Positions 8,985-20,120 of a stretch of 31,195 nucleotides of DNA are shown piece after piece. The position numbers and the translations under genes were made by a program. The first letter of the stretch is position 1, and each line of letters starts with the position of its first letter. The notes beneath the pieces were generated by a model. That model was not told the origin of the DNA, made no database searches, and saw only the letters and a list, made by a program, of their open reading frames with translations. Source of the stretch: a virus; IMG/VR virus record IMGVR_UViG_3300035698_003443, positions 1-31,195 of that record; one strand, 5' to 3'.

Positions 8985-9005
8985 AATAGAAATGTTTATA
9001 TATCA
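8985..9005 (+). promoter_or_regulatory. Archaeal promoter of the free-standing HNH gene
   Basis: GAAATG (8989-8994) is BRE-like and TTTATATAT (8995-9003) is a TATA box. Its centre is 26 bases from ATG 9025, so the transcript is probably leaderless. The promoter starts right after the left direct repeat, as if it had been inserted together with the gene. Confidence 0.7.
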
Positions 9006-9024
9006 CTTATTACATTTCTATATT

Positions 9025-9387
9025 ATGAAAAAATATAAATGTAAAATATGTGGAAATTTGTTCGATTATAGAACAACACGAGGAACACAAGTATGTTCCA
9101 CACCTTGTAATAGAAAATTGCAAAGTATGTTAAAAATTGGAGAAAATAATCCACGTTTTAATAATGGACACAGACAATATATTCGTATCATGAAAGATAT
9201 TAAATTATGCCAAAACTGTGGTAGAAAATATAAATTAGATGTACATCATATCGATGGTAATAGAAGAAACAATAAAAAAGAAAATCTTATTAAAGTATGC
9301 AGGAGGTGTCATATGTTATTAGATGGAAGATTTAAACATTTGAACTATCATAATTCAGGAACTGGATTATGTTCTGGGGGTGATTAG
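9025..9387 (+). CDS. HNH homing endonuclease, free-standing
   Basis: A 120-aa HNH nuclease. The N-terminal finger KCKICGN then VCSTPC gives C-x2-C and C-x3-C. The HNH core is CQNCGRKYKLDVHHIDGN, then NKKENLIKVCRRCH, with both Cys pairs, the HH dyad and the Asn. Start 9025 fits the promoter spacing; an upstream in-frame start at 8992 lies inside the promoter and is rejected. The stop TAG touches the restored ATG of the next gene. Likely a mobile homing endonuclease that inserted into a YkgJ-like gene. Confidence 0.88.
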   Translation: MKKYKCKICGNLFDYRTTRGTQVCSTPCNRKLQSMLKIGENNPRFNNGHRQYIRIMKDIKLCQNCGRKYKLDVHHIDGNRRNNKKENLIKVCRRCHMLLDGRFKHLNYHNSGTGLCSGGD

Positions 9388-10241: not shown

Positions 10242-12116
10242 ATGGATTTTAATATATTCAAGAAAGCTAAACCGGCACAGGTAGATCTCAAATCAAGTGG
10301 TCCGACATCTCCAGGTGGCGACGTATTTGAACGTCCTAATATAGATTTTTCTGTATTCAAAGCGACCATTCCACGGTTTTTGTATAAACCCCCTTTTGGT
10401 TATCCACGAGGAGACAACCCACCACTTCTAAAACAATTTTCGAAAAACGGTTATATGTTCTCTGTAATTACAAGATTACAAGAAGAAGCAGCATGGACAC
10501 CTTGGAAGATCAATCTTAAGGATGAAGATGCTGAGTGGACACCGGAACTTGAAGCAAAGAAGTTAGAGATTACAGAATTCTTACAAAACCCTAACGGTAA
10601 CAAAGAAGGATGGAGTCATTTAATTAAGACAGCTGTTCGGGATATATGCGAACTTGACGCAGGGTTATGGGTTAAAGTATTTGGTAGAGATAAGAAACTT
10701 AAACAAATGTTTGCACGTGATGGTGGAACATTCCTTAAGAATCCAGACAAGTTTGGTTATATAGGAGATAGAGCAGATATCATATTTCCAGATGATAGTC
10801 TTACAGCAGCTACAACACAAAATACAGGTAGTGAGTTTGCTAATACAGACTTCGGTGCTAGATACGCTCTTAAATATAATGAAATCGCAGCATATTATCA
10901 ATATGGTTGGGAGATGGCATCAATGCCTATTCCATTCGGTAAACGTGAAATTGTTTACTTTATGAAAAACCCTCGTTCTGATTCAATTTATGGTATATCA
11001 CCAGTTAGCATATTGGCTGATATCATATTGACATTAGTATATGGGTCTATGTACAATTTAGATTATTATCAAAATAGTAATATGCCAGAGGGCATTATAA
11101 GTATGATCGGAGCACCGAATAAGGAATGTCAATCATTCGGTAAGAGATTAAAAGATACAATTAAAGAAGTAGATCCAACTACTGGATTTAGCAGGAAGAT
11201 CGGATATAAGATGCCGGTTGTTAATACAGATGTTAAATTTACTCCGTTCCAGATCCCAGCACGAGAGATGCAGATAATTGAACAACAAGCATGGTTCACT
11301 AAGATAGTATGGATGTGCTTTGGTTTATCCGCAGACGATATGGGTTTTACTGAAGATTCTAATAAGGCAGTAAGCGAGTCACAAACTAAGAAGTTCGCTA
11401 AGAAGGCAGCAAGACCAATACTAAACCTTATAGCAGAAAGAATCAATATGGAGATTATACCAGAATTTGATACAAACGAATTATGCCTTGAATTTGACGA
11501 TTATGACCTTAGTGAAGACGTAGTTAAACATAGTTTATACGAGTCCCAAATAAGAATGGGTATTAAGACACCAGAGATGGTAGCAGCTGAAGAGAAGATC
11601 GACGTAGCAGAACTAACTAAACAGAAAGAAGAGAATGCAGCTAAAGAAGAAGAAAGCGAAATAAGAAAATCAACAGCAATGCCTGATGAATTTGGTAACG
11701 ACGACGATAAGAAGGATGATAAGAAACCTGACACTAAAGCGGCACATTTAGCAGTAGACGATTTTAAACCAGACGATGATGAAGAAGAACTTAAAGCATT
11801 CATTATAGACGTCGGTACATCAGTACGAGCACCTAACGGACCAGAAGGTCAAGGTGTAGGAGTAGTATTAGAAATATATGCTGACGAATCAATGTTAGTA
11901 AAATTCGCAACAACTAAATTAATATATCACCAATCCGAACTAGTACCTATAGGTAATGGTCAAGGAAGCGCATTAAGCCGAGTTAAAAGTAAATCAGATC
12001 CATTTGCTAATACTGCATTTGAAAAGGATATGAATATACAAATTGAGAAGTCAGCTAAACTAATCAAGAATGCATTAAAAACCTACGAAAAGGGTGCATT
12101 GAACAATGTCAATTGA
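10242..12116 (+). CDS. Portal protein with C-terminal extension
   Basis: A 624-aa HK97-type portal. Recognisable portal features include the MKNPRSDSIYGISPVSIL segment (241-258) and NMPEGIISMIG (280-290), followed by the helical stem and wing region to about residue 440. A Lys/Glu/Asp-rich linker (about 455-515) leads to a small beta domain (IIDVGTSVRAP to LIYHQSELVPI, about 521-570) that looks SH3- or KOW-like, then a helical tail. The portal forms the ring through which TerL pumps DNA. It overlaps the MuF-like gene by 11 bases. The extension is unusual and may contact MuF or scaffold (inference). Confidence 0.88.
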   Translation: MDFNIFKKAKPAQVDLKSSGPTSPGGDVFERPNIDFSVFKATIPRFLYKPPFGYPRGDNPPLLKQFSKNGYMFSVITRLQEEAAWTPWKINLKDEDAEWTPELEAKKLEITEFLQNPNGNKEGWSHLIKTAVRDICELDAGLWVKVFGRDKKLKQMFARDGGTFLKNPDKFGYIGDRADIIFPDDSLTAATTQNTGSEFANTDFGARYALKYNEIAAYYQYGWEMASMPIPFGKREIVYFMKNPRSDSIYGISPVSILADIILTLVYGSMYNLDYYQNSNMPEGIISMIGAPNKECQSFGKRLKDTIKEVDPTTGFSRKIGYKMPVVNTDVKFTPFQIPAREMQIIEQQAWFTKIVWMCFGLSADDMGFTEDSNKAVSESQTKKFAKKAARPILNLIAERINMEIIPEFDTNELCLEFDDYDLSEDVVKHSLYESQIRMGIKTPEMVAAEEKIDVAELTKQKEENAAKEEESEIRKSTAMPDEFGNDDDKKDDKKPDTKAAHLAVDDFKPDDDEEELKAFIIDVGTSVRAPNGPEGQGVGVVLEIYADESMLVKFATTKLIYHQSELVPIGNGQGSALSRVKSKSDPFANTAFEKDMNIQIEKSAKLIKNALKTYEKGALNNVN

Positions 12117-12948
12117 ATTAAAATCATTAATCAATGATTTGGTTAAAGCAATATCCAAATTGTTTAGCGTTTCAGCGACTAACATCGCAAGGGATACCAT
12201 AAAGAAATTTTATGATATCGGGCTACAACAGATGGAAGTGAAGTTTAATATGAACTTTACTGGTAATAATACACGTCTTGGTACAATACAAGATTATGTT
12301 GTTGAGAACGTTAAAGGGTTTAACGACCAGATGCAAGACCGATTACGAAAGGAAATTACTCAAAGTATTATCGATAAAGAACCATTAACCGAAACAACTA
12401 AACGGGTTCAAGAAGTATTTAAAGTTGCTAAGGACCGAGCAAAGATGATAGCTCGAACCGAAACAAACAGAGCATTAAACGTGGCTCATAAAGACGCAGC
12501 CGAACAATCAGGTTTAAAATTAAAGAAGATGGTATCCGTCAAATTGGATGACAGAACATCTCCAATATGTAGGAGAATGCATTCAAAATATGGAATAGAA
12601 AAACAAGCGATTCCAATGAACGCAAAGTTTGTTGACAATCAAAGTGGTCAAAGCTTTGATATTCCTCCGTTTCACGTCAATTGTTTTGTTCCAGGAACAA
12701 AAATCCGAACTCAATACGGAGAAAAGAACATTGAGAATGTGAGCATAAATGATTATGTTTACACGCACAAAAATAGATACAAACCAGTTACTGAGGTTTT
12801 GAAACGATATGTTTCTGAAAAGATATATGTTGTTTCAACTTCGAAAGGTACGATACGTGTAACTGGTGAGCATCCGATAATGACGAATAAAGGATGGAAA
12901 GCAGCTAAAGATTTAACTACAAAAGATTGGGTGTTACACGCAAAATGA
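12106..12948 (+). CDS. MuF-like head protein, N-extein plus N-terminal intein half
   Basis: Residues 1-192 match MuF-type minor head proteins next to a portal: AKMIARTETNRALNVAHKDA at about 113-132, then DDRTSPICRRMH and PPFHVN. The family ends in an H-x-N-C-R motif; here it stops at HVN and an intein begins with Cys193. The intein half (193-280, 88 aa) has block A CFVPGTKIRT and block B GTIRVTGEHPIMT with the T-x-x-H pair (T61 and H64 of the intein). The ORF ends in TGA at 12946-12948, overlapping the ATG of the second half. Confidence 0.88.
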   Translation: MSIELKSLINDLVKAISKLFSVSATNIARDTIKKFYDIGLQQMEVKFNMNFTGNNTRLGTIQDYVVENVKGFNDQMQDRLRKEITQSIIDKEPLTETTKRVQEVFKVAKDRAKMIARTETNRALNVAHKDAAEQSGLKLKKMVSVKLDDRTSPICRRMHSKYGIEKQAIPMNAKFVDNQSGQSFDIPPFHVNCFVPGTKIRTQYGEKNIENVSINDYVYTHKNRYKPVTEVLKRYVSEKIYVVSTSKGTIRVTGEHPIMTNKGWKAAKDLTTKDWVLHAK

Positions 12949-13601
12949 TATTAGTTAAATGTGATTATTGTGAAGCGTTGTTAGAACGGAAATATCCATA
13001 TCAAGCTAAAGGATATAATTATTGTAATGCTTCATGCCAAATGCATCACGAATATGCTATTGGAAAAAGAGATAAAAATACAATAGCAAAGAAAGCCCAA
13101 AAAGTATCGAATTCAAAAATGAAAATAAACAATTGGTTGAATACTAAAAAATCACGAGCTAAATTAAAAGAAGTTCAACAAACGGATGAATATAGAATAA
13201 AATCGTCATTAGCTAAAGTAGGAGAAAAGAACCCAATGTTTGGAAAAACAGGAGAACAAGGTGGACACTACAAAGGTGGTTCATATCGAAAATATGGAAT
13301 TTCATTTAGAGGACCATTATGGAATGATATAAAAAGTAAAATTAGAGTAAGAGATGATAACAAATGTCGAATGTGTGGCTGTATAGAAAATTTACAGGTA
13401 CATCACATTGTACCATATAAATGCACACAAGACAACAGTGATGATAATTTAATAACATTATGTTCAAAATGTCATGCAAAGAGTGAAAATACTTTTTGCA
13501 AAGTAAACAATATTGAAGTTGAAGAATATGAAGGAAATGTTCATAATTTTTCGGTTCAACATGATGAAACATATATTGCTAACAATATGGTAGTCCACAA
13601 T
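12682..13601 (+). other. Fractured intein with HNH endonuclease
   Basis: The intein spans Cys1 (12682-12684) to the terminal Asn (13599-13601) and is coded in two ORFs that overlap as ATGA. The C-extein resumes with Cys (13602-13604). Joining HVN to CRTRALYI restores the MuF motif H-x-N-C-R. All splicing residues are present: Cys1, T-x-x-H in block B, the final His-Asn and Cys+1. Trans-splicing of two proteins, or cis-splicing after a -1 slip at GCA AAA, would both give the mature head protein. Confidence 0.85.
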
Positions 13602-13655
13602 TGTCGGACACGAGCACTATATATCCAGGAAGAAGATCAAGGTGATAAAGAATGA
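12945..13655 (+). CDS. HNH endonuclease plus C-terminal intein half plus MuF C-extein
   Basis: A 236-aa ORF from ATG 12945. Residues 6-31 form a finger (CDYC, then CNASC). A NUMOD3-like motif GEKNPMFGK lies at 93-101. The HNH core is at about 135-180 (CRMCG, VHHIVPY, NLITLCSKCH). Residues about 185-219 are the intein C-terminal half, with block F VHNFSVQHDETYIANN and block G MVVHN. The C-extein is 17 aa (CRTRALYIQEEDQGDKE). The N-terminus resembles that of stand-alone HNH proteins, which suggests an endonuclease gene fused in front of the C-half. GGGTG lies 11 bases before the ATG. The stop overlaps the next ATG (ATGA). Confidence 0.85.
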   Translation: MILVKCDYCEALLERKYPYQAKGYNYCNASCQMHHEYAIGKRDKNTIAKKAQKVSNSKMKINNWLNTKKSRAKLKEVQQTDEYRIKSSLAKVGEKNPMFGKTGEQGGHYKGGSYRKYGISFRGPLWNDIKSKIRVRDDNKCRMCGCIENLQVHHIVPYKCTQDNSDDNLITLCSKCHAKSENTFCKVNNIEVEEYEGNVHNFSVQHDETYIANNMVVHNCRTRALYIQEEDQGDKE

Positions 13656-19622: not shown

Positions 19623-20120
19623 ATGGAAAAAAGAAATCAATTAGGTCAATTTGAAAAAGGAATGATACCTCATAATAAAGGAACACGAGAATACATTATG
19701 AAAGAATGTAAAAAATGTCATAATGTGTTTACAAGACCTGATTGTAAATGTTTTAGAAAGCAAGATTTTTGTTCAAAAGCGTGTGCTACATCTTATCGAT
19801 GTAAAGGAAAAAAGAAATCATATGAAGAACGAGTTAAATTTAGTCTCGCAAAAACTAAAGAAAAAGTTTTTATTGGATTTAAATCAAATATATCAAAAAG
19901 AATACGTAATTCAGTAGAATATAAATTGTGGAGAAAAGCAGTATTTAAGAGAGATGATTATACATGTCAAGATTGTGGAAAAAGAGGTGGATATATTGAA
20001 GCACATCATCATAAACCATTTAGTTTATTTCCAGAATTACGATTTGCAATAGATAATGGCATTACGTATTGTACTAAATGTCACATAAAAAACGATACCC
20101 ACAGAGGTAGGAGGAATTAA
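19623..20120 (+). CDS. HNH homing endonuclease
   Basis: 165 aa. A NUMOD-like N-terminal segment ([17 protein letters not shown]) is followed by a finger with CKKC and CSKAC, then an HNH core: [20 protein letters not shown] and [15 protein letters not shown] lies before the ATG. It is placed between the two tiny ORFs and the tail tube gene. The AGGAGGA motif occurs both before it and right after it (20110), where it serves the tail tube gene. Probably mobile DNA in a late operon. Confidence 0.87.

Follow-up and report, generated by a model that had tools for sequence, protein, structure and literature searches.

A split intein with an HNH endonuclease joined to its C-terminal half in the MuF head gene of a probable archaeal virus

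The interrupted MuF gene and its two reading frames

The stretch of DNA that we analysed (the window), a 31,195-base record from the IMG/VR virus collection (IMGVR_UViG_3300035698_003443), contains a MuF minor head protein gene interrupted by an intein whose two halves lie in separate, overlapping open reading frames (ORFs), the second of which also encodes an HNH endonuclease. An earlier reading of the letters alone, referred to here as the original prediction, had described a fractured intein in a MuF-like head gene, and matches to Phage_Mu_F, Hint_2 and intein_Nterm as well as nine homologous loci bear this out. ORF1 encodes the N-extein and the intein N-half (IntN), and ORF2 encodes the endonuclease, the intein C-half (IntC) and the C-extein, with the following features.

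12106 to 12948, plus strand: ORF1, 280 amino acids, MuF minor head protein N-extein followed by the intein N-half, stop codon included (from translation)
12106 to 12681, plus strand: N-extein, 192 amino acids, MuF domain with the C-terminal end PPFHVN, common to ten of ten lineages
12682 to 12945, plus strand: IntN, 88 amino acids from Cys1 (C193) to Lys280, NCBIfam intein_Nterm match above cut-off (alignment A4)
12862 to 12873, plus strand: Block B T-x-x-H motif, TGEH, residues 253-256, with T253 and H256 invariant in ten ORF1s
12929 to 12933, plus strand: GGGTG, Shine-Dalgarno-like, 11 bases 5' of the ORF2 ATG, anti-Shine-Dalgarno pairing -6.3 kcal/mol
12945 to 12948, plus strand: ATGA, in which the ORF2 ATG (12945-12947) overlaps the ORF1 stop TGA (12946-12948)
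12945 to 13655, plus strand: ORF2, ATG start, 236 amino acids, comprising zinc finger, NUMOD3, HNH, IntC and C-extein, stop codon included (translation, alignment A3)
12945 to 13073, plus strand: zinc-finger-like N-terminal part of the endonuclease, residues 1-43, four invariant cysteines and GxRD in nine aligned ORF2s
13176 to 13250, plus strand: NUMOD3-like DNA-binding motif, residues 78-102, weak Pfam match (1.3e-3, below cut-off)
13365 to 13490, plus strand: HNH nuclease core, intact, residues 141-182, Pfam HNH match (4.6e-7, above cut-off)
13491 to 13601, plus strand: IntC, about 37 amino acids (residues 183-219), VVHN end with His218-Asn219, matched by Intein_splicing
13602 to 13652, plus strand: C-extein, 17 amino acids, CRTRALYIQEEDQGDKE, Cys-Arg invariant in nine aligned ORF2s

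ORF1, which adjoins the portal gene, matches Pfam Phage_Mu_F (PF04233) over residues 79-193 (E = 9.9e-13; 49.3 bits against a cut-off of 29.6) and a PHROG minor head protein family (1e-25). Its Cys193 directly follows PPFHVN, and matches to Hint_2 (3.3e-7, above cut-off) and Intein_splicing (6.9e-6, below cut-off) start at or after this residue. In ORF2, where the zinc finger has the pattern CxxC...CxxxC, the HNH match is followed in the same frame by IntC, with the C part of Intein_splicing extending to residue 219 (1.1e-6, below cut-off). The original prediction of an HNH endonuclease fused to a C-terminal intein half thus stands, with the half measuring about 37 amino acids rather than about 35. 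The class 1 catalytic residues that it listed as intact can likewise be read in the translations: Cys1 (C193), T253-x-x-H256, His218-Asn219 and Cys+1 (C220). All class 1 sequence marks that we tested are present in the window, and both halves match Pfam Hint or intein profiles, with the fold itself seen in a model of the contiguous relative L211 (see below); an AlphaFold model of ORF2 alone returned IntC at low confidence. When joined, the exteins read PPFHVN-CRTR, a form matched by intein-free MuF homologues in Streptococcus phage Javan472 (YHFNCRTT) and on contig L328 (PPAHVNCRSS). A mechanical ORF caller places the start of ORF2 at TTG 12927, and it is the ATG at 12945 that aligns with all relatives.

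Recurrence of the arrangement and the start/stop junction

Viral contigs were scanned with intein profiles and the reading frames of the matches were then checked. Single-protein scans with ORF1, ORF2 or the terminase recovered no close relative; profile scans (A1, A2) did find relatives, and nine further lineages share the gene order of the window (L040, L042/L043, L044, L080, L120/L121, L122, L127, L129 and L205). In all ten, the stop of a MuF-IntN frame is overlapped by the start of an HNH-IntC frame, Phage_Mu_F is found in ORF1 (10/10), position 1 of the intein is a cysteine, and TxxH, HN and Cys+1 are kept throughout. The nine ORF2s that could be aligned have in common M1, the zinc-finger cysteines and a VHNCR end, within which VHN and the His-Asn|Cys boundary (H218 N219|C220) are invariant, and Intein_splicing matches every one of them (9/9). 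Within GTDB genomes the ORF2 profile matched only weakly and in part, chiefly through IntC, and at no matched locus did an N-half accompany an HNH or zinc finger.

HNH and IntC form a single ORF in the window and in eight of the nine relatives. The ninth, L127, has lost nearly the whole HNH core and retains only the zinc finger of the nuclease, and L040 carries an in-frame internal deletion within HNH. Both keep IntC, the C-extein and the start/stop overlap, which argues that the split intein itself is needed and not only the nuclease. This argument is joined by the rates of protein change between the window and L040, the pair to which all such figures here refer. The ratio of nonsynonymous to synonymous substitution (dN/dS) is 0.12 for IntN and 0.09 for the zinc finger and linker; for IntC (dN 0.22) and the N-extein (dN 0.345) dS is saturated, and dN across the intein (0.18-0.22) lies below that of the N-extein. 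Both intein halves, on either side of the junction, show purifying selection.

These observations bear on the most mundane explanation of the locus, in which an ordinary cis intein containing an HNH domain has been broken by a recent inactivating indel or only seems broken through an error in sequencing or assembly. Cis MuF inteins with an in-frame zinc finger and HNH do exist, and a one-base change in the run of A at the junction would join the two frames. However, nine other contigs are split in the same way through junctions that vary in sequence and in frame relation, and strong purifying selection flanks the junction on both sides, so that we regard this explanation as extremely improbable. 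The contention that this is not simply a broken gene is also upheld by the intein-free relatives described below.

The junction reads ATGA in eight of the ten lineages, the window included, and L080 (ATGAATAA) and L205 (ATGATAGTTAA) have longer overlaps; a start codon overlapping a stop is the feature kept in all of them. Upstream of ORF2 starts, pairing with the anti-Shine-Dalgarno sequence is stronger than it is upstream of ATGs internal to these regions (median -6.4 vs -3.1 kcal/mol, one-sided p=0.0025). Because the overlap is conserved and the pairing before ORF2 starts is stronger, coupled re-initiation is most likely the route by which ORF2 is translated. The original prediction had raised another route, a -1 ribosomal slip on the AAA that precedes TGA, which would yield one long precursor and hence a cis intein. 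The window sequence GCA AAA TGA would allow the frames to be joined in this manner, as would the junctions of L040, L042, L044 and L122. Comparison of the lineage junctions nevertheless revealed no slip site in L120, L127 or L129 and a different frame relation in L080 and L205, so the combination of conserved slip site and frame relation that marks programmed -1 frameshifting does not extend across the lineages, and slippage appears very unlikely.

Portal phylogeny, host and the proposed mechanism

Portal proteins related to that of the window occur in all nine other split lineages (26-58% identity) and also on contigs assigned to metagenomic bins, namely L327 and L328, from the phylum of a Woesearchaeota metagenome-assembled genome (MAG), and L332, from the phylum of a Halobacteriales MAG. 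The best portal E-values were 2e-77 and 5e-69 in the Woesearchaeota MAG phylum, 7e-36 and 2e-13 in samples of other archaeal phyla (Halobacteriales and Thaumarchaeota MAGs, respectively), and 5e-9 and 1e-9 in bacterial samples (Bacillota and Patescibacteria, respectively). In agreement with the original prediction, the window is therefore probably a tailed virus of archaea, possibly of DPANN archaea, an assignment that is indirect because the portal matches lie on bin contigs.

The archaeal-bin contigs L327 and L328 encode MuF without an intein (PPAHVN|CRSS), providing the empty sites for which a contig search had been suggested. In the portal tree both are nested among intein carriers, and their grouping with the outgroup is rejected by the approximately unbiased test (p-AU 0.0095). 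The intein and portal trees also conflict over the placement of L080 (p-AU 5e-4 and 3e-4). We considered clean homing of the intein as the source of this conflict and rejected it, since the tree of the MuF N-extein can be reconciled with that of the intein; with the N-extein not clearly at odds with the intein, recombination is better shown than homing of the intein alone. Two side observations concern these genomes: L327 has a terminase gene with its own intein (2-1360) though its MuF has none, and the window contains two further free-standing HNH genes (8992-9387 and 19623-20120) whose N-terminal zinc-finger-like starts resemble that of ORF2.

With a probability of roughly 0.83, we propose that this viral MuF gene contains a class 1 intein made as two translationally coupled proteins, whose trans-splicing completes MuF and frees HNH-IntC as a homing endonuclease. 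Ribosomes that terminate MuF-IntN translation at TGA 12946 would start again on the overlapping ATG 12945 and produce HNH-IntC-C-extein. IntN and IntC would then associate, and trans-splicing of HVN to CRTR would give MuF with an intact HVNCR motif, releasing IntN and HNH-IntC. During co-infection HNH-IntC would cut intein-free MuF alleles, into which the cassette at 12682-13601 could be copied whole. Re-initiation, trans-splicing and DNA cutting are predicted from sequence, and the proposal builds on what is observed directly: the anatomy of the locus and its catalytic residues, its recurrence in other lineages, the purifying selection on it, its survival where HNH is no longer intact, and intein-free sites. 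The stronger ribosome-binding signal ahead of ORF2 and the predicted intein fold of L211 also favor it.

Three points weigh against this proposal. L122, L040 and L042 have only a weak ribosome-binding signal; the compatibility of N-extein and intein trees means that the moving unit is not isolated as the intein; and, with a C-extein of only 17 amino acids, it is hard to see what is gained by splicing. The shortness of the C-extein also speaks for a different account, in which the halves have lost the ability to splice: the virus would tolerate MuF-IntN as a head protein with an added tail, and ORF2 would be a homing endonuclease that carries the remains of an intein. Against this stand the retention of catalytic residues in divergent lineages, the IntC and C-extein of L127, which persist though the nuclease core has gone, the lower dN of the intein relative to the extein, and the presence of the same residues in one contiguous intein, that of L211 (see below). 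We consider non-splicing halves unlikely, and favor the trans-splicing of MuF by two coupled proteins.

Other MuF inteins and known split systems

Inteins often interrupt MuF at this point, in both cis and split forms, and while the arrangement itself was correctly described, it is less isolated than the original prediction supposed. Escherichia phage Snoke (PMC6776784), Vibrio phages and Gordonia phage Barsten have cis-splicing MuF inteins, either annotated or readable from the sequence; these interrupt the HxN|CR motif of this gene family exactly where the window intein does, but each lies in one uninterrupted ORF, whereas the window intein is split. A second set of cis inteins (L088, L109/L158, L119, L152, L153, L155, L157 and L164) has a zinc finger and HNH nested at the corresponding position, in frame and with neither a stop nor a new start, again unlike the split form in the window. 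Other split MuF-type inteins are closer to the classical fractured form: L212/L117 have a free-standing HNH gene in the sense direction, L069 has a sense endonuclease-like ORF, and inspection of L071 and L137 revealed no intervening endonuclease ORF. Genes on the opposite strand were also seen between split MuF intein halves, encoding HNH proteins in L046 (3432-3959) and L091 (3453-4010) and, as judged by eye, Vsr-like proteins in L082 (1399-1947), L099 (3247-3903) and L154 (4262-4915).

A tree of 136 inteins places the ten fused-HNH lineages on one side of a weakly supported branch (37). They lie within a group of 16 (support 92) together with five further split MuF inteins and a single cis mini-intein row; the cis-HNH MuF inteins form a separate clade (99*). 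L211, sister to L080 (99/97*), is a contiguous cis mini-intein inside the split group, and it carries an HNH-tail remnant (LCSKCHAK). The simplest reading, in which we infer the direction of change, is that L211 was re-fused after HNH loss. Its AlphaFold model is of moderate confidence (70-85 over most of the intein) and matches inteins including the split inteins gp41-1 and NrdJ-1, whose fold L211 is predicted to share (template modelling score normalised to target 0.73-0.87); these differ in residing in other host genes and in having 22-24% identity over the aligned part.

Dassa et al. (2009) reportedly described fractured genes in which a split intein is accompanied by a free-standing endonuclease. 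The window resembles them in that a split intein divides a viral gene where a homing endonuclease usually sits, and the endonuclease is coded between the halves. It departs from them in having no free-standing endonuclease, because HNH and IntC are one protein, in the overlap of the ORF2 start codon with the stop of the first half, and in its target, which is a virion gene rather than a DNA-metabolism enzyme. The naturally split intein of the Nanoarchaeum equitans DNA polymerase is linked to DPANN archaea and occupies a cellular polymerase gene, with halves that lie far apart in the genome and are not known to include an endonuclease. In the fractured AceL NrdHF gene the intervening endonuclease is of the GIY-YIG type (PMC7891396). 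We found no description of a fused HNH-IntC split form in the literature searched, whose coverage omits most subscription journals and in which absence is weak evidence. The classical fractured-gene form was seen separately in two phage IMPDH-like (inosine monophosphate dehydrogenase-like) genes broken by a split intein (L029 415-3074 and L031 3182-5639), with NUMOD3/Vsr-like endonuclease ORFs between the gene halves.

These related loci bear on the origin of split inteins and of genes in pieces: one MuF family displays intein-free genes, cis inteins with nested HNH, split inteins with HNH fused to the C-half, split inteins that have lost the HNH core, split inteins with separate or antisense endonucleases, and an intein that is contiguous again (L211). 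The fused arrangement looks conserved and functional, and resembles the missing step between whole and split genes. It suggests a route in which an endonuclease that retains its own start codon inside an intein splits the gene, and in which trans-splicing then maintains the split even after the nuclease decays. We also entertain, tentatively and with more doubt than confidence, a broader view of these lineages as an archaeal-virus split-intein family in which trans-splicing of a virion protein would also mature the nuclease, which would be synthesised as an HNH-IntC-extein precursor, tied to MuF through the start/stop overlap and freed only on splicing; the lineages would then form a series from split with fused HNH, through split after HNH loss, to re-fused mini-intein. 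Short proteins with intact catalytic residues make these steps directly testable, and the MuF split intein halves are candidate new split inteins for protein ligation.

Further MuF inteins depart from the class 1 pattern. Five split examples have an apparent first residue of Ala, Gln or Ser with Cys+1 kept (L071 3590-4234, L082 1141-2395, L099 3007-4171, L137 4025-4621 and L154 4028-5155), and those starting with Ala or Gln could be split inteins of another class; as of 2020, no split class 2 intein was known (PMC7891396). In L058 (3068-4099) and L061 (3053-4087), stops fall well inside the middle domain of the MuF intein with the C-half downstream in the same frame, and these look like decaying or differently split inteins. 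Finally, the cis MuF inteins of the Vibrio phages L003 (2779-4872) and L006 (2081-4207) have an apparent Ala-Cys start after HxN and are possibly not of class 1.
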